From Piscirickettsiaceae bacterium (lineage in GTDB: Bacteria; Pseudomonadota; Gammaproteobacteria; Nitrosococcales; Methylophagaceae), in contig JABSQO010000002.1 in assembly GCA_013215775.1 (NCBI GenBank), forward strand, positions 124,001-188,000: a stretch of DNA of 64,000 nucleotides, read 5' to 3'. The notes under the pieces are model-generated. The model was not told where the DNA came from. It saw nothing but the letters and a program-made list of their open reading frames with translations, and did no database searches. Within the stretch, counting starts at the first letter, position 1. Every line of letters begins with the position of its first letter. Position numbers and translations under genes: made by a program. Shown here one piece after another: positions 19,308-26,479 of the stretch.

Positions 19308-20102
19308 TTACGAATCTAGCCAAAATGTACATTTTTTAATCAAGTCTATTTGATTTACTGCATTTAGTGCTTCTCGAGCATTTCGAAGTTGATTTTCTAT
19401 TGTACGAGTAGATTTGCCTAGTTCATAGGCAATTTGCTTATAACTCATGCCTTTAGCAGATAAACTTATCGCAGCTAACTCTGCACGGCTTGGACGTTTT
19501 ATTATTTGTTTACTTTTAGCACCATGCCAATATTGGCTGATCCCTGCTAGCGGTCCAAAAAAGGTTTCACAAAATGAAGACATGAACGCTATTTCTTCTG
19601 GTAACCACACATGTTGTTCATTGGTAAAGTCAACACAGGTTAGCCCGACCGTTTTTTTGTCTAAAGATAAGCGTTGAAAAAGTACTGATTCACTTTGAAT
19701 TGCTTCAAAAGTAGCACGCGAATCAGCCATGATTTTATCATCATGAATACTGGTACACACTACGGGTGTACGTTGTCGCCATGTTTTTTGGAACACAGGA
19801 TCTTGGTTGGAGTAGCTAACATTTGTACAATCAGGCGGCTGAGAATACTGGCTATGATGGACAAATGTAGGTTCATATAGTTTGTCTGTTGGTGTTGAAA
19901 ATCCCATATCAGCTCGGCAAGCCGAAAATTTATCGACGATGTGCGATAAGGCTATATTCATCATCTCATCAGGATTATCAATTGTGAGAATCATATAAGC
20001 GACACAATTAATCGTATCTGAAGGAAAAGATTGTATGTTTTTATCTATAAAATATTGTTTGAGCGCTTTTTGTGAGGGAGGCTCACTAATATAGTCAAAC
20101 AT
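19308..20102 (-). CDS. LuxR-type transcriptional regulator with GAF-like sensor
   Basis: This is a 264-residue regulator. The C-terminal 65 residues form a LuxR-type helix-turn-helix (ELAAISLSAKGMSYKQIAYEL, then STRTIENQLRNAREALN). The N-terminal 185 residues resemble a GAF sensor fold (ALSHIVDKFSACRADMGF, VGLTCVDFTNEQHVWLPEEI), with six cysteines but no obvious acyl-homoserine-lactone pocket pattern. It is transcribed divergently from the cupin, secreted-protein and porin genes across 260 bp and is the likely local regulator. Its ligand is unknown. Confidence 0.8.
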   Translation of the reverse strand: MFDYISEPPSQKALKQYFIDKNIQSFPSDTINCVAYMILTIDNPDEMMNIALSHIVDKFSACRADMGFSTPTDKLYEPTFVHHSQYSQPPDCTNVSYSNQDPVFQKTWRQRTPVVCTSIHDDKIMADSRATFEAIQSESVLFQRLSLDKKTVGLTCVDFTNEQHVWLPEEIAFMSSFCETFFGPLAGISQYWHGAKSKQIIKRPSRAELAAISLSAKGMSYKQIAYELGKSTRTIENQLRNAREALNAVNQIDLIKKCTFWLDS

Positions 20103-20137
20103 AATTGTTATGCCAAATTGATTTATTAAACAGAGTG

Positions 20138-20149
20138 TTACACGTGTAA
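20138..20149. promoter_or_regulatory. Perfect 12-bp palindrome in LuxR/cupin divergent region
   Basis: TTACACGTGTAA lies 36 bp upstream of the LuxR-type gene start, in the 260-bp divergent region 20103-20362. A 12-bp self-complementary site at this place is a plausible operator for autoregulation. The rest of the region is AT-rich and includes a G-run (20244-20250) and a C-run (20333-20337). No confident -35/-10 pair is visible. Confidence 0.45.
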
Positions 20150-20362
20150 ATATCCGTTAACAGGTGCAATGGTATTTTAACTATAGATGAAAAACAACCT
20201 AAAATCCAGTAAGAAAAAATTTGTCAAGACTTAATTCGGTCTATGGGGGAGATAAATAAAAAATAGGGGTTTTTTGTCATGTTTTAGAATTTTGGAATCG
20301 ATAAAGTAGTCATCAGTGAGAGAAACAGGTTTCCCCCACTTTACACTTAAAGAGGATTCAAT

Positions 20363-20815
20363 ATGAAAATGATACATACCTTATCAGTTAGTGCAGTGGC
20401 TATTGCTTCGGCATTATCTATCTCATATTCGGCGGGTATTTTTGCCCATGGTGCCGACGATGATGTTGTTGAAATGCAATATCTTCAAAATGCAAAAGAC
20501 ATGACGATCAGACAACTGGATGGTGATAATGCCAATGCCTTTCTAGAAGACATTGTGACATCAGGAGATGAGCACCACCCAATTTCTTGTGGTCTATTTA
20601 GAATGGAAAAAGGTAATCCACTCGTATATACCTATGAATACCCTGAAGCAAAAGTCATTTTGGAAGGTCAAATGACAATATCAGATGGAATAACGACGGT
20701 CAGTGCTGAAGCTGGAGATGTTTTATTCTTCCCGATCAACTCGACTATTACGTTCTCATCAGATGATTATGGTCTAGGTTTCACTTGTGGCTTACGTTCA
20801 CTTAATGGAACTTAA
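20363..20815 (+). CDS. Secreted cupin-fold protein (EutQ-like)
   Basis: This 150-residue protein has a Sec signal peptide (VSAVAIASALSISYSAGIFA, cleavage near AHG) and a single small cupin domain. The core ISCGLFRMEKG, YTYEYPEAKVILEGQMTISDG, EAGDVLFFPINSTITF is the pattern of EutQ/DUF861 cupins, which are normally cytoplasmic. The mature part has two Cys (ISCG and FTCG) that could form a disulfide in the periplasm. The ligand is unknown. It is the first gene of a three-gene group. Start codons ATG 20363 and 20369 are both possible; AGAGG lies at 20351-20355. Confidence 0.75.
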   Translation: MKMIHTLSVSAVAIASALSISYSAGIFAHGADDDVVEMQYLQNAKDMTIRQLDGDNANAFLEDIVTSGDEHHPISCGLFRMEKGNPLVYTYEYPEAKVILEGQMTISDGITTVSAEAGDVLFFPINSTITFSSDDYGLGFTCGLRSLNGT

Positions 20816-20864
20816 TGTTGATGTTCTTAATAAAAACAAGATGAAAACTAAAAATTATAGAGAT

Positions 20865-20914
20865 GCTATTTAAGCGTTTGTTAATGCGAAAGTGTATACC
20901 GACGCTTAAATAGC
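20865..20914 (+). promoter_or_regulatory. 12-bp perfect hairpin before the unknown secreted-protein gene
   Basis: GCTATTTAAGCG (20865-20876) pairs perfectly with CGCTTAAATAGC (20903-20914) around a 26-nt loop. There is no T-tract, so it is not a classical terminator. It ends one base before the AGGAG ribosome site (20916-20920) of the 509-residue protein. It could be an mRNA-stabilising or processing hairpin that sets the ratio of cupin to downstream products, a translational switch, or an operator. Confidence 0.7.
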
Positions 20915-20927
20915 CAGGAGAGAGAAA

Positions 20928-22457
20928 ATGAATAAATTGTGTAAACGTACGATATTGCCGACTTTAATAGCTTTTGCAATACCCGTATTCCAATTGCATG
21001 CAAATGAAAACCTTCAGTTAAACGATCTGACTCAAAATGATCCATTTTTTTATACCAGTGACCAGAACATTAAAGATGATGATGAAACTAAGGTGTTATT
21101 AGGTACAGGAAGACCAAATAAAACACATTCACAGATTCCACATCTACCAGCCTACTATGGTTATATGAACACTAACTCAACGTACCGTTTTGTAAATGTT
21201 GTTGAGCAAGTATTTACCATGATCGGCGAAGGTAAGCATGGCTTATGGCGAATTCAAGAAAATGGGTCAGTACGTGAATACTTAAAATATGGAAAAACTG
21301 GTCTGCCAGAAGGTGCTGATCTGTTTTCAGCTGAAAACCAAAAGATCATTAAAAATAATTATAGCAATTACCTGCCAAATGAGAGCTGGTCAGGCTATAA
21401 ATATCCGGATCAAAAAATCAATGAGAATGGTAATTTAAACTTCGTTGATTTGCCTATTACACATCCAAAATATGAAGGTAAGTATGCTAAGCATGAAGCT
21501 GTTGAGCTACCTTCATTCTACTGCACCATGTCAGGTCCTGATTATGTTTATGCAAAAAAGGCATTAGATTTTTCATTCAACCAACCGGGTGCTAATAAAG
21601 TAGGCCCATTAGGTAAGCGTGCAGGGCTAGATATCAATGAGAATTATACGAAAGTACTTCGTTTAGACGCTTTTCCTGATGCTCGATCTTGGGTTAATGT
21701 TGGTCAAGAAGGTAAAGATGAAACATATATGAAATGGTTAGCTGTTGATGAAGATAAAACGGCAGCTGAATATTATTTGTTAGAGCGCCCTTTCTTTAAT
21801 AGAAAATACATTTTTGTAACGGCTGTTTACGATAATAAAGATAATGATGACTTTCAGTACATACGCCCACAAGGGGTTTATTTCGACTCACTAAAAGCGC
21901 GAGGATTATCACCTAAGACAACCGTAACTCAAGCGCCGAGGTTCCATATTGAAAATGGCGAACTTGAAAAAGTGCAAGGCCTACCAGTATTTGGCATTCA
22001 TCATCACAACAGAAAAGTTTATGGAGGCGGCGGTGCCTGCCCATTAAAAGGTGGCGACTATGGGCGCTATCCAGAAACGACTGCAGGTTCTGCTTGGCCA
22101 ACTAACTATGAAGAAATTACACCGCTATGTGATGGCGTTCTGGTTGATATCAAGTTCTACGCTAACTTAGATGGTTCGAGCTGGAATGATGAAAATAAAT
22201 ATTTAGGTAACGCAGGTGTAGGTACCGAAACAGTTACTTATCAAATGCAAAGTGGTGAATATGGTGTTTTCACCGATGAGTACAACACGGACTTAGGCAT
22301 TAAAAATCCAGACAGTCAGCAAGTACCAAGTGAACTTAATTTAACATTCCCATCGGTATCTGAACCCACTGCTTACACACCAACCTATATGGGTGAACCA
22401 GGCGTGGCGATGTTGCCTTTGCAAGGCTCATCATGTCGTCCCATTCCACAGTCATAA
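20928..22457 (+). CDS. Large secreted protein of unknown function
   Basis: I do not recognise this 509-residue protein. It has a Sec signal peptide (ILPTLIAFAIPVFQLHA, cleavage before NEN), no further membrane segment, and four mature-part cysteines (SFYC, GGAC, PLCDG, SSCRP), enough for two disulfides. The mature chain is rich in Tyr, Asn, Asp and Gly. A striking segment at about residues 360-375 reads FGIHHHNRKVYGGGGACP, and could bind metal. The C-terminal 60 residues are Pro/Ser/Thr-rich. The ribosome site AGGAG is strong. It lies between a secreted cupin and a TorF-type porin, so a role with a periplasmic or surface substrate is plausible. Confidence 0.75.
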   Translation: MNKLCKRTILPTLIAFAIPVFQLHANENLQLNDLTQNDPFFYTSDQNIKDDDETKVLLGTGRPNKTHSQIPHLPAYYGYMNTNSTYRFVNVVEQVFTMIGEGKHGLWRIQENGSVREYLKYGKTGLPEGADLFSAENQKIIKNNYSNYLPNESWSGYKYPDQKINENGNLNFVDLPITHPKYEGKYAKHEAVELPSFYCTMSGPDYVYAKKALDFSFNQPGANKVGPLGKRAGLDINENYTKVLRLDAFPDARSWVNVGQEGKDETYMKWLAVDEDKTAAEYYLLERPFFNRKYIFVTAVYDNKDNDDFQYIRPQGVYFDSLKARGLSPKTTVTQAPRFHIENGELEKVQGLPVFGIHHHNRKVYGGGGACPLKGGDYGRYPETTAGSAWPTNYEEITPLCDGVLVDIKFYANLDGSSWNDENKYLGNAGVGTETVTYQMQSGEYGVFTDEYNTDLGIKNPDSQQVPSELNLTFPSVSEPTAYTPTYMGEPGVAMLPLQGSSCRPIPQS

Positions 22458-22502
22458 ACATAAACGATGTTTATTAAAGAAAACAATTTAGAGATTAATT
22501 TT

Positions 22503-23321
22503 ATGAAAAACTATAAAGCACTTTTGTTATTGTCATTAGCCACTGGCTTCAGTTCGAATGCTATGGCCGAGAATGGTCCAGAGCGTCAAGCTCAACCTGA
22601 GAGCAGTTTTGATGCCTTTTTGGATAGCGAGACAGTATTCAATGGTAAATTTACCACGTGGGTTGAAATCGCTACTGATTATGTCTTCCGTGGTGAATCT
22701 GAAACGAATGATGGTGATATTCCATCACTAAAAGCGGCGATTACCTGGACTCATGATAGTGGAGTTTATGCGGGTTTGTATGTTGCCAATAACTTATTCC
22801 CAGGAGATGATTCAGAAGGTCACAACCCAAATATCAACTCAATTTATGGCCCTTATATTGGTTATTCCGGTGAGATAGGTAATTCAGGTTTTAACTATAA
22901 TGGCTTCCTGTTTCAATATCTTTACCCTGGTGACAGTGATTCTAATTATTTAGAAATGTTTAACTATGTGGATAAACAGTTTGGTGATGTAAACATCAAG
23001 TTGGAATACTCACCGACATTGACGGATTGGTTCGGTGTGGATGGTGTGCAGTCACATAATGTTGCTATTCATCCAAGTATTGCATTACCTCATGGGTTTA
23101 CCTTGTCAGGTAGCCTTGGTCGCCAAATGTTTGAATCTGAATTTGATGCAAACTGGACACACTGGAATGTTGGTGTAAGCCGTAATGTCTTCGGTTTCAA
23201 TGTTGATCTTAGATACCACGATACTGATATTAAGATCGGCGATAATGATTTTTATGGTTTTGAATCTAATAATCATATCGTTGATTCACGTTTTGTAGCG
23301 GCTATTTCAAAGAGCTTCTAA
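22503..23321 (+). CDS. TorF-family putative porin
   Basis: This 272-residue outer-membrane beta-barrel has a signal peptide (ALLLLSLATGFSSNAMA) and alternating amphipathic strands. The opening strand of the TorF/Gcw_chp family is present (WVEIATDYVFRGESETNDG), as is the typical LKAAITWTHDSGVYAGLYVAN, and the chain ends in Phe. I start at ATG 22503; an in-frame ATG at 22467 would put 12 polar residues before the signal peptide. It is probably the outer-membrane route for whatever the upstream secreted proteins handle. A strong terminator follows 26 nt later. Confidence 0.82.
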   Translation: MKNYKALLLLSLATGFSSNAMAENGPERQAQPESSFDAFLDSETVFNGKFTTWVEIATDYVFRGESETNDGDIPSLKAAITWTHDSGVYAGLYVANNLFPGDDSEGHNPNINSIYGPYIGYSGEIGNSGFNYNGFLFQYLYPGDSDSNYLEMFNYVDKQFGDVNIKLEYSPTLTDWFGVDGVQSHNVAIHPSIALPHGFTLSGSLGRQMFESEFDANWTHWNVGVSRNVFGFNVDLRYHDTDIKIGDNDFYGFESNNHIVDSRFVAAISKSF

Positions 23322-23347
23322 TCAAGTATTAAAAAGTTTCAGCTTTT

Positions 23348-23394
23348 AACAAGACCTCTTTTGTTCTTGGAACAGAAGAGGTCTTGTTCTTTTT
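23348..23394. terminator. Strong bidirectional terminator
   Basis: AACAAGACCTCTT (23348-23360) pairs perfectly with AAGAGGTCTTGTT (23376-23388), and the loop itself pairs further (TGTTC with GAACA) after one mismatch. A T-rich tract follows on the + strand. It lies between the porin gene and the convergent znuB-like gene and can serve both. The remaining gap to 23447 shows nothing else. Confidence 0.92.
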
Positions 23395-23447: not shown

Positions 23448-24212
23448 TCATACTGAAGTTCTATTAATCATTGGCTTAACAATAATAACGACTGCTAATA
23501 GAGTCCAAATCGTCACTGCACCCGTTGGTAAATCAAACGCTAATGATGCAATGAGCCCCAAGATATATCCAGATAAACCAATACCGTATGCGATTATCAG
23601 ACGAGTGTTTGGATTGGATATTTTACGACTGGCTATAGCTGGAACAATCAAGCTAGCAAACACTAAATAGATACCTATCAATTGCACCGATGCAGTGACT
23701 GCCAATGAAAACACCAAATAAAACAGAATTGATCGTTGTTTGTCACTAACGTTAAACCAGATCAATAATAGTGGGATATAGAGTGATGCAACCCAAAGCA
23801 ATTGTTCTGTGCTAACCCATAAAATTTGGCCCACTAATAAATCATGCAACAACTCATCACTATGAGGTGCGTAACTCGCGAGTAATAGCCCACCACTTGC
23901 AGCTAAAACAAACAGTAATCCGATTAGCGCTTCTAAAATAGAAGTATGGTTTTTTTCTAGCCAATGAATCAGTAAGGCACCAGTAATAGCACTAAATCCT
24001 GCAAATAATTGTATTTGCCATGAGGCAAGTTCACCACCAAAAACAGTGGCAGCAATCACGCCTAAGGCAGCAATTTGAGCAATAGCAATATCAATAAAAA
24101 TAATGCCACGTTTGAGAACTTCTTGCCCTAAAGGAATATGAATAGAAAGTACGAGAGTACCTGCCAAAAAGGCAGGCACAATCAGCATTAAATCAAAATC
24201 TGTCCAGATCAT
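23448..24212 (-). CDS. Metal ABC transporter permease, ZnuB-like
   Basis: This 254-residue inner-membrane protein belongs to the ZnuB/MntB (ABC-3) permease family, with about seven or eight hydrophobic segments. It shows the family block IPLGQEVLKRGIIFIDIAIAQI near the N-terminus and IYLVFASLIVPAIASRKI in the second half. It overlaps the substrate-binding protein gene by 4 nt. No ATPase gene (znuC type) is present on either side, so the transporter must borrow an ATPase encoded elsewhere or be non-functional. Zinc is the most likely substrate, manganese possible. Confidence 0.86.
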   Translation of the reverse strand: MIWTDFDLMLIVPAFLAGTLVLSIHIPLGQEVLKRGIIFIDIAIAQIAALGVIAATVFGGELASWQIQLFAGFSAITGALLIHWLEKNHTSILEALIGLLFVLAASGGLLLASYAPHSDELLHDLLVGQILWVSTEQLLWVASLYIPLLLIWFNVSDKQRSILFYLVFSLAVTASVQLIGIYLVFASLIVPAIASRKISNPNTRLIIAYGIGLSGYILGLIASLAFDLPTGAVTIWTLLAVVIIVKPMINRTSV

Positions 24213-25105
24213 TGACGGGCACTCAACAAGCGTTGAATAGTGTCATCAAATAGACTAAATAAATCTGTACTCTTTTCATTCCCTCCCACAGTAAAGGGTA
24301 AGGTAGCTTTTGTTATTGCTGTTTTATTAAGTAGCCAATCCGTTGCTCTGGAAGATTGATAAGCAGTATTAATAACAATTTTAGCGGGTACTATTTTCAA
24401 CTTGTTAAGTACATTATTTAAGTCCTTAACCGTTGGTGGTACACCTGGTTTAGCTTCCAATACAGCTATCTTATTTAAACCTAACCAGTCAGATAAATAA
24501 CGCCAATTATTGTGTTGAACAACAATCTTTGTTCCCTTAAGTGGTGCTGCTTGTTGTTGCCATTTTTCAATAGCAGCTTGCCATCGTCTCTCAAAATCTT
24601 GCCAACGCCGTTGATAAATATCAACATTGGCACCATCAAGTTGTTGCAGGCGTTGAGTTAGAGCTTGAGCAACCTGCATGATCTTTAATGGACTGGTTTG
24701 AATGTGAGGATTGCCAGTAGCATGTATATCACCCTGACTACGATCCAAAGAACTTGGAATATCTAATAAAGCAACATAGTCAGTTGCCATAAAATAACCA
24801 GCTGCACCTGTTTGGATAGCTGAGTTACCTGATTTCCGTTGCAATAATGGCAACCAACCCACTTCTAATTCTTCACCCGTACAGATTAATAAATCTGCTT
24901 GTCTTGCCTTAGCAATTAGACTAGGACGGGCTTGAATATAGTGGGGATCTTGCAAGCCAGTGGTAGCAGAAAACACGGTCACTTTATCTCCCCCTAGTTC
25001 TTGGCTTAATGATGCCCACTCAGGTTCACAAGCAAAAATATTAATATCTGCCATAGTGGGAGAAGTTGCTATTAGCAACAATAAAAAAACAATAAATCTT
25101 TTCAT
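24209..25105 (-). CDS. Periplasmic metal-binding protein, ZnuA-like
   Basis: This 298-residue cluster A-I solute-binding protein has a signal peptide (VFLLLIATSPTMA). Likely metal-ligand histidines lie in LQDPHYIQARPS, GNPHIQTSP and VVQHNNW. It lacks the His-rich loop of typical ZnuA, and the fourth-ligand region reads TAYQSSRATDW. The combination with a ZnuB-like permease and a porin points to zinc or another divalent metal. It starts 12 nt after the porin gene, in the same operon. Confidence 0.85.
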   Translation of the reverse strand: MKRFIVFLLLLIATSPTMADINIFACEPEWASLSQELGGDKVTVFSATTGLQDPHYIQARPSLIAKARQADLLICTGEELEVGWLPLLQRKSGNSAIQTGAAGYFMATDYVALLDIPSSLDRSQGDIHATGNPHIQTSPLKIMQVAQALTQRLQQLDGANVDIYQRRWQDFERRWQAAIEKWQQQAAPLKGTKIVVQHNNWRYLSDWLGLNKIAVLEAKPGVPPTVKDLNNVLNKLKIVPAKIVINTAYQSSRATDWLLNKTAITKATLPFTVGGNEKSTDLFSLFDDTIQRLLSARQ

Positions 25106-25117
25106 AATAGACTCCTA

Positions 25118-26479
25118 TTAAAAGCTATGAGCGTCATGGGCACCAATGCTAACGGTGTATTGTAAGAATAGTTGGGTGTCATCATTACGTGATGATTTGT
25201 CATGGTTTATTTGAGCACGAACACGACTAAATTCACTTGGTAGCCATTCCAACATCAGGCTATAGCGTTGTGGATGAAAGCCAGAAAAATCCAGATCAGC
25301 ATCGGTTAATAATTCATTATCAGAAGCACGAAGATTGCTACCCAACCAGTCATAGCGAACACCTGTGCGCCACTGAGGCTTGAATTGATAAATTCCTTCA
25401 ACAAAACCACCGTATTGTTTGCCATCATAGGATGCTGATTCAGCACTATTGTTTAATTGACCATCTTCACTGAGATAGAAATACTCGCCTAGTAAGGTAA
25501 TGTTGCGTTGTCTAAAATTACCATTAGGTGCCCACTTGTAGACTAAGGAAATATTGCTGATATCGGTATTACCGTTAAACAGTACGGGATCTGCACCCCC
25601 TGATCCGTCATGATCGTGGCCACCACTATAAGCCCGATCATCAGGGCTGGCTTGCCAGTGTGAAACACTAGCTTGCCAGTTATGACTGCTACCGATATCA
25701 CCACCAGTACGAGCATAAATTAACCAATCGCCAACACCACTATGTTCACCACTCCCTGGATATTGATCTCCATTGCCAAGAGTGCCCCCTAGTTCAACAA
25801 ACAAATTAGTAGGTAATAGGTAAGATAATTTCAATCCATCAGTGGATAGTTGATTACCAAATAAACCACGGTAAATAAGCGGGGCATCAGCAAAATTCCA
25901 AACATGAATATGTTTTTCATTCAAATAACCGATGGGGGAGAAGAAACGGCCTGCTCGAACTGTCAGGCCATTATTTAAGCCTAGTGTTTCGATAAATGCT
26001 TCCTCAATTTCTACTTCAGTTTCGCCTTCATTATCGTGTAAAGCAATAGTCGATTGACCGAATAAAAGCTGATCAATACTGGCACTCAAGGTGATCTCGC
26101 TTTCACCTAACGAGAATCCTTCAGTGGCTAATCCACCTTCACTATTCAAGCTAAAGCCGTCCAACTCATAAGCCTCACCATCACGACGATAGTCACTAAA
26201 TTTTCCATTTAATACCATGCTAATGGCAGGATTAAAACTATTGTTGTTAGCGGTTTTCTTTGCTGGGGTTGGACGTTCAATCATTTTGGTGACAACGGTA
26301 TTATTTGTCTGAACAATTTTTTCCGCTCTTATAAGACGTTGTTCTAATTGCGTTATACGGCCGTCATAGTCGGCTCGCAGTTGAGCAAGTTCTTTTTTTA
26401 AGTTGCTAATGTCATCGGCGAATACAGGCGATGATACGAAAGTCACTGCAATTAGCAGTGCTAAACGTGATTGGTTCAT
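25118..26479 (-). CDS. Outer-membrane porin linked to zinc-type uptake genes
   Basis: This 453-residue protein has a signal peptide (ALLIAVTFVSSPVFA), a short N-terminal coiled coil (DISNLKKELAQLRADYDG, LEQRLIRAEKIV) and a long beta-barrel domain with many alternating amphipathic strands. An extracellular-type loop is rich in His/Asp/Gly (YSGGHDHDGSGG). The C-terminus is aromatic (HSF). The barrel with N-terminal coiled coil resembles phosphate- and metal-associated porins. Location directly upstream of znuA/znuB-like genes suggests it admits metal or a metal complex. Confidence 0.78.
   Translation of the reverse strand: MNQSRLALLIAVTFVSSPVFADDISNLKKELAQLRADYDGRITQLEQRLIRAEKIVQTNNTVVTKMIERPTPAKKTANNNSFNPAISMVLNGKFSDYRRDGEAYELDGFSLNSEGGLATEGFSLGESEITLSASIDQLLFGQSTIALHDNEGETEVEIEEAFIETLGLNNGLTVRAGRFFSPIGYLNEKHIHVWNFADAPLIYRGLFGNQLSTDGLKLSYLLPTNLFVELGGTLGNGDQYPGSGEHSGVGDWLIYARTGGDIGSSHNWQASVSHWQASPDDRAYSGGHDHDGSGGADPVLFNGNTDISNISLVYKWAPNGNFRQRNITLLGEYFYLSEDGQLNNSAESASYDGKQYGGFVEGIYQFKPQWRTGVRYDWLGSNLRASDNELLTDADLDFSGFHPQRYSLMLEWLPSEFSRVRAQINHDKSSRNDDTQLFLQYTVSIGAHDAHSF

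Follow-up and report, generated by a model that had tools for sequence, protein, structure and literature searches.

In a 64,000-nucleotide stretch of a Piscirickettsiaceae bacterium genome of 2.2 Mb (contig JABSQO010000002.1, positions 124,001 to 188,000; here called the window), a module was identified that consists of genes for an exported EutQ-like cupin, an exported protein of 509 amino acids (here called U509) and a putative outer-membrane porin of the TorF family, together with a divergently oriented gene for a GAF-LuxR type regulator. Judged from sequence comparison, U509 is an undescribed, strongly conserved exported protein at the core of this module and its linkage to the cupin is real. 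We tentatively favour a reading, which we rate at somewhat below even, in which the module is an inducible single-operon envelope system for a small one-carbon (C1) or methylated-nitrogen compound, with the cupin and U509 as its core.

To map the module, 30 loci were scanned for all its parts and 27 distinct genomes with upstream DNA were counted, leaving out the fragments L039 and L020, which have no upstream DNA, and L037, whose genome is the same as that of L052. These 27 loci comprise nine from Methylophagaceae (the family of the window), six from Methylophilaceae, seven and four from two further gammaproteobacterial groups and one from Paracoccus. A cupin gene lies immediately 5' of U509 on the same strand in 27/27 loci, across five groups of Proteobacteria, and TorF is encoded downstream of U509 in all 15 loci of Methylophagaceae and Methylophilaceae. 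In the other 12 loci, the protein encoded after U509 is a MauG/MbnH-like di-haem protein in 9 of the 11 that have downstream DNA; L031 and L052 have neither TorF nor a di-haem protein at this place, and L038 stops within U509. The di-haem family assignments were scanned for the proteins of L013, L015 and L017, of which the last matches MauG in the PDB over a short C-terminal stretch, and two CXXCH motifs are present in each of six aligned di-haem proteins. The regulator is of the LuxR type in 11 loci, of an Xre-PAS type in ten and was not found in six, three of which are short. Where torF is present, its start is overlapped by the end of U509 in 9/10 Xre-type loci and in 0/5 LuxR-type loci.

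Since this gene order is kept across families, the module is more than a chance arrangement. An earlier note, made on the window alone, had named co-occurrence in several genera as support for a system, and the cupin and U509 show it in all five groups and TorF in two. The separate occurrence of the parts, which the same note had named as evidence against a system, is also seen, to a limited extent: cupin relatives occur in 14 of 61 genomes without U509, pairs of regulator and cupin stand without U509 in L103, L105, L106 and L108, a second torF lies elsewhere in the window genome beside a glnK-like gene, TorF is missing from 11 of the 12 loci outside Methylophagaceae and Methylophilaceae, and the regulator is of the other type or was not found in 10 and 6 of the 27 loci, respectively.

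The distribution of U509 is rare and patchy. It was found in 9/57 genomes of Methylophagaceae, in 7/150 of Methylophilaceae (the family of Methylotenera oryzisoli, whose cultured strain La3113 is a carrier), in 7/19 of a gammaproteobacterial family known here from metagenome-assembled genomes (MAGs) and in 4/20 of another gammaproteobacterial order, compared to 3/369 genomes in a sample of the class and 1/398 in a sample of the phylum, the window genome being counted in both. Methylophaga, Methylophilaceae and Paracoccus include methylotrophs. Among 72,556 plasmid records a single one, of Paracoccus sp. TOH, carries U509; a weak match on a Rhodococcus plasmid (E = 2, 29% covered) was dropped, as it has no annotated adjoining cupin. 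None of 23 pattern matches in viral contigs is a relative, and the best match in a phage search (E = 7) is not meaningful. In a U509 tree of 26 rows, the gammaproteobacterial MAG rows split from all others with full support, and the regulator classes (LuxR, Xre, none) require three changes on this tree, the least possible number being two.

Across 25 sequences, U509 has a mean column identity of 70%, and seven His, three Cys, two Met and five Trp residues are invariant. It gave no sequence match to PDB chains up to E = 10, either as a single sequence or as a profile, and Pfam and NCBIfam returned for 26 homologs only scattered weak matches, each in one or two of the 26, with a best E of 0.0081. 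The structure prediction that the earlier note had proposed was carried out in two AlphaFold2 runs and gave models of low confidence, with a predicted local distance difference test score (pLDDT) of 48.4 and 57.4 and, for the latter model, a predicted template modelling score (pTM) of 0.59. Searched with this poor model, Foldseek gave no matches at E <= 0.001, and of 1000 chains in VIA-align a single one reached Z >= 2, with Z 2.3; no fold is assigned here. A parallel was considered with the methanethiol oxidase that is accompanied by SCO1 and MauG genes in the excerpted text of PMC6548844, and was set aside as showing no link, U509 having no Pfam match.

The LuxR-type regulator gene travels with a matching operator-like element. 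The window regulator carries a C-terminal GerE helix-turn-helix (26.6 bits, cut-off 23.5), in agreement with the divergent LuxR-type regulator that had been noted before, and its GAF matches are weak and lie under the cut-offs (GAF_2 19.4, cut-off 28.6; GAF 16.6, cut-off 22.4); the homolog in L015 passes GAF PF01590 with 23.7 against 22.4. Four cysteines (C33, C62, C156 and C258) and two histidines (H164 and H193) are invariant among nine homologs of the LuxR type. A box, TAGGGGTTTNTTGTCA, allowing up to three mismatches, precedes the cupin in 10/11 module loci that bear a LuxR gene and in 0/13 others, a count from which L054, L055 and L057 are excluded. When 16 genomes or records, ten of them with a LuxR-bearing module, were searched with up to two mismatches, the exact box occurred in seven, once in each and always just 5' of the cupin; in the window genome TAGGGGTTTTTTGTCA at 20264-20279 is the sole exact match. 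In Paracoccus, where the LuxR gene lies 3' of U509, a box with two mismatches still precedes the cupin, and at the LuxR and cupin pairs without adjoining U509 (L105, L106 and L108) a box is found with one or two mismatches. The motif TANNNT stands 22-23 nt past the box in 9/9 aligned loci, the chance per locus being 0.006 to 0.11 for a spacing that was picked after inspecting the loci. Taking TANNNT as the -10 element, the box would fall at roughly -50 to -35, a position that an activator of the LuxR type could occupy.

Loci with an Xre-PAS regulator bear other elements in front of the cupin. TTAC-N7-GTAA repeats are present in 8/10 of them and a near-consensus sigma-70 promoter (TTGACA-N16-18-TATA) in 7/10, each compared to 0/15 of the other upstream stretches. 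This combination of repeats and promoter suggests that these loci are under repression. No invariant Cys or His was seen in the Xre-PAS regulators (ten aligned, two of them cut short). The module is apparently under its own local control.

Regarding the cupin, the EutQ domain PF06249 is recognised at 44.2 bits (cut-off 21), and the protein stays far under the cut-off of the EutQ acetate kinase equivalog NF012001 (32.6 against 193 bits). It thus shares with the EutQ-like cupins (PF06249/PF05899; PDB 2pyt, 4axo and 3lwc) the domain and a profile match to solved EutQ chains, but differs from them in being exported, as judged from its N-terminus, in having two invariant cysteines (C76 and C142, across 22 module cupins) and in that no eut genes were seen alongside. 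Cupins usually have His metal ligands in their first motif, and by our own reading of the alignment these are absent here. The signal peptide, which had been called odd for a cupin of this kind, is indeed lacking in the shorter relatives of L104, L105, L107 and L108, but the stand-alone cupin of L103 has one. A cupin profile run against 80 genomes found relatives in 33, namely all 19 U509 carriers and the 14 genomes mentioned above; among the 15 distant matches, with E between about 1e-29 and 1e-34, 13 have a GcvT-type match no more than about 9 kb away, G039 and G827 being the exceptions. Tandem cupins precede U509 in L014 (316-1268), L052 (9802-11635) and L038 (651-1443), and in the L014 and L052 pairs the first cupin is without Cys76 and the N-terminal extension.

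Two loci without U509 are described here for their cupins. In L103 (7590-14167), an Xre-PAS regulator gene is divergent from the gene of an exported cupin that matches a module cupin at 68%, one TTAC-N7-GTAA repeat lies upstream and a formylmethanofuran formyltransferase gene is about 4-5 kb off. L108 (6052-13476) combines a GAF-LuxR gene with two short signal-less cupins, ATP-binding cassette (ABC) importer genes and a MauG/CCP protein.

The module TorF is well above the family cut-offs, with 145.6 bits for TIGR02001 (cut-off 47.15) and 86.1 bits for PF09694 (cut-off 24). Its open reading frame opens at 22467 and, by inspection, ATG 22503 gives the signal-peptide-like start. The second torF of the window genome, on contig 1 (L087, 1423-2527), is followed by a glnK-like gene and is divergent from an lgt-like gene, both by reading. 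The module TorF passes the same family cut-offs (Gcw_chp, TIGR02001) as this torF-glnK type, to which the other copy of the genome belongs, but is more divergent (86.4 vs 122.2 bits) and is tied to the cupin and U509. In L048 (6976-8114) TorF is in two pieces, possibly by a frameshift or a sequencing error.

Features of the module in the window (positions of the 64,000-nucleotide stretch)
Feature	Position	Strand	Remarks
Regulator, GAF-LuxR type, divergent	19308-20102	-	264 amino acids; family scan
Palindrome TTACACGTGTAA, 12 bp	20138-20149	.	noted before from the sequence
Conserved box TAGGGGTTTTTTGTCA, candidate activator site of the regulator	20264-20279	+	pattern search
Candidate -10 element TAAAGT, 22 nt past the box	20302-20307	+	spacing comparison
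Cupin, EutQ-like, exported	20363-20815	+	150 amino acids; family scan
Hairpin in the gap between cupin and U509, perfect 13-bp stem	20865-20914	+	not conserved in the closest relative
U509, exported, no known family	20928-22457	+	509 amino acids
TorF-family (Gcw_chp) putative outer-membrane porin	22503-23321	+	family scan; start by inspection
Intrinsic terminator, 19-nt arms	23348-23388	+	arm complementarity and T-rich run

The cupin, U509 and TorF each begin with a Sec-type hydrophobic N-terminus by hydropathy and reading, which bears out the three secreted same-strand genes described earlier. The hairpin and the strong terminator reported with them are likewise present. The terminator arms (23348-23366 and 23370-23388) are 95% complementary over 19 nt and are followed by a T-rich run, and the arms of the hairpin (20865-20877 and 20902-20914) form a perfect 13-bp stem with 24 nt between them (z -3.1 against 100 single-base shuffles). 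As a conserved control element the hairpin was rejected, z being at or below -3 in 3/22 intergenic stretches (the window, L028 and L047) and not in the closest relative; perhaps it stabilises the mRNA. The palindrome in the divergent region was considered as an operator and also set aside: it exists, but only 10 bp of it are left in the closest relative and it was not found in 14 other gaps between regulator and cupin. Being unconserved in relatives, palindrome and hairpin are unlikely to be general parts of the module. By reading, the minus strand beyond the module (23448-26479) encodes a ZnuB-like zinc ABC permease, a ZnuA-like binding protein and a 453-amino-acid exported protein with a His-rich stretch.

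As the earlier note had suggested, the module may take up, sense or modify something in the periplasm. In the mechanism that we propose, the GAF-LuxR protein would use its GAF domain and invariant cysteines to sense a signal in the cytoplasm, bind the box just 5' of the promoter and switch on cupin, U509 and torF. TorF would then pass a small solute across the outer membrane, and the cupin, presumably ligand-binding and by reading without the usual His metal ligands, would together with U509 capture or convert this solute in the periplasm. The likeliest class of solute would be small C1 or methylated-nitrogen compounds, or the formaldehyde derived from them. This assignment draws on the neighbourhood in other genomes. 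In L016 the module lies between sarcosine-oxidase-like genes of the N-methylglutamate dehydrogenase type and an ammonium transporter group with glutamate-synthase-like and glutamine-synthetase-like genes, neighbours that we take to be mgd, mgs and gmaS, and L017 has the same clusters. The distant cupins with a GcvT-type match nearby and the glnK-like gene after the second torF of the window genome are counted as further contexts of this kind. The one annotated locus among these distant cupins, L101 (2312-13055) of the Methylophaga family, holds dmmDABC-type genes, TorF, an ammonium transporter, an EutQ-like cupin, a PAS gene and a two-component pair, and L102 and L107 have its dmm and two-component clusters. 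The dmmDABC-type dimethylamine monooxygenase cluster shares a related cupin, the TorF porin and the ammonium transporter gene, but, unlike the window module, the L101 stretch is without U509 and has a two-component pair plus a PAS gene in place of GAF-LuxR; in L107 and L104, moreover, the short cupins have no signal peptide at their start.

Several observations weigh against the proposed C1 or methylated-nitrogen function and its control. No amine pathway was seen among the neighbours of the module in the window. Dependence on the N-methylglutamate pathway, as suggested by L016-L018, does not hold: 12 of 25 carriers, namely the window genome and 11 of the 24 others, have no full-length match to the alpha subunit of the N-methylglutamate dehydrogenase type. 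Within the family of the window such a match occurs in 5/9 carriers vs 16/48 non-carriers, several of these genomes being incomplete, and no clear association between U509 carriage and the pathway emerges. TorF is missing in 11/27 loci and unread in one (L038), and the U509 model is poor and without a structural match. As to the box, that of L015, a locus with a LuxR gene, has four mismatches, which is no improvement on the top chance match of L023, a locus without such a gene; of the pairs in L105, L106 and L108, just the first has TANNNT 22-23 nt past its box. At up to two mismatches the box gave 78 matches vs 88 for a reversed control, and because the mismatched box is no commoner than this control, only exact matches are meaningful.

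Alternatively, the module could serve the acquisition or storage of a metal, copper in particular, which we regard as unlikely. U509 would then be an envelope copper binder like MopE/CorA or MbnP, and its MauG-like partner would oxidise a Trp for the copper site. The invariant His, Cys, Met and Trp residues of U509 would suit such a role, as would the di-haem gene directly after U509 in most loci outside the TorF-type families, an arrangement that we liken to MbnP/MbnH, presumably a similar pair. The genes that follow the module in the window, which we take to be znuA and znuB, are counted on the same side, and so are CPC-type ATPases near two Methylophilaceae loci, one of them scanned as heavy-metal type, but by a rough estimate two such ATPases in 27 loci are little above chance. 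CorA/CorB and MopE/SACCP, as described in the excerpted text of PMC3912023, are pairs of an exported protein and a di-haem protein, and part of the U509 family likewise has an exported protein of no known family followed by a MauG/MbnH-like one. Unlike these pairs, however, the window lineage has no adjoining di-haem gene, which is absent in the window and in 15/15 TorF-type loci, shows no sequence similarity to them in the PDB searches and always has the cupin; moreover, U509 matches no PDB chain in sequence.

A response to formaldehyde or redox stress, in which the invariant cysteines of the regulator would sense an electrophile and the cupin and U509 would protect the envelope or detoxify products of methanol or amine oxidation, is likewise an unlikely explanation. 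It is consistent with the four invariant Cys of the LuxR-type regulator and the two of the cupin, and cupin relatives without adjoining U509 have a formyltransferase (FTR) gene nearby in L103 and a GTP cyclohydrolase gene in L104, or belong to the dmm-type cluster, contexts that are few and were picked after the fact. For that cluster, dmmD has been proposed to lower formaldehyde toxicity (PMC5520151, excerpted text). The lack of invariant Cys or His in the Xre-PAS regulators argues against this explanation, as does the presence of U509 in only 9/57 genomes of a family whose members presumably all make formaldehyde. Scavenging of nitrogen from a small amide or amine, apart from C1 metabolism, seems quite unlikely: the glnK-like gene beside the second torF, the ammonium transporter genes near the module in L016 (a cluster also in L017) and near the L101 cupin, and, in Paracoccus, a formamidase with an AmiS/UreI transporter at a distance of about 6 kb from U509 point this way, but nothing of that kind was seen alongside the module in the window.

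No description of this gene set was found in open-licence PMC papers, supplements lying outside the scope. The regulators of trimethylamine catabolism in the excerpted text of PMC13390433 are the AraC-type TmaR and TmoR, and the words 'LuxR', 'porin', 'cupin' and 'Methylophaga' do not occur in that text.

In the C1 or methylated-nitrogen reading, a further step would be that U509 is the founding member of a new exported oxidoreductase family, which together with the cupin oxidises or demethylates such a compound in the periplasm by means of a metal or a protein-derived cofactor, matured in some lineages by the MauG-like protein. We consider this step decidedly improbable; if true, it would give these lineages, several of them methylotrophic, a periplasmic route separate from the mau, N-methylglutamate and Dmm/Tdm enzymes. 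More generally, an undescribed envelope function is suggested by U509, which occurs solely alongside an exported cupin and next to a regulator that apparently serves a single target; several of the bacteria concerned use methanol and methylated amines. The box and the swap of regulators, an apparent activator in some loci and an apparent repressor in others, would make the inducer searchable before any biochemistry.

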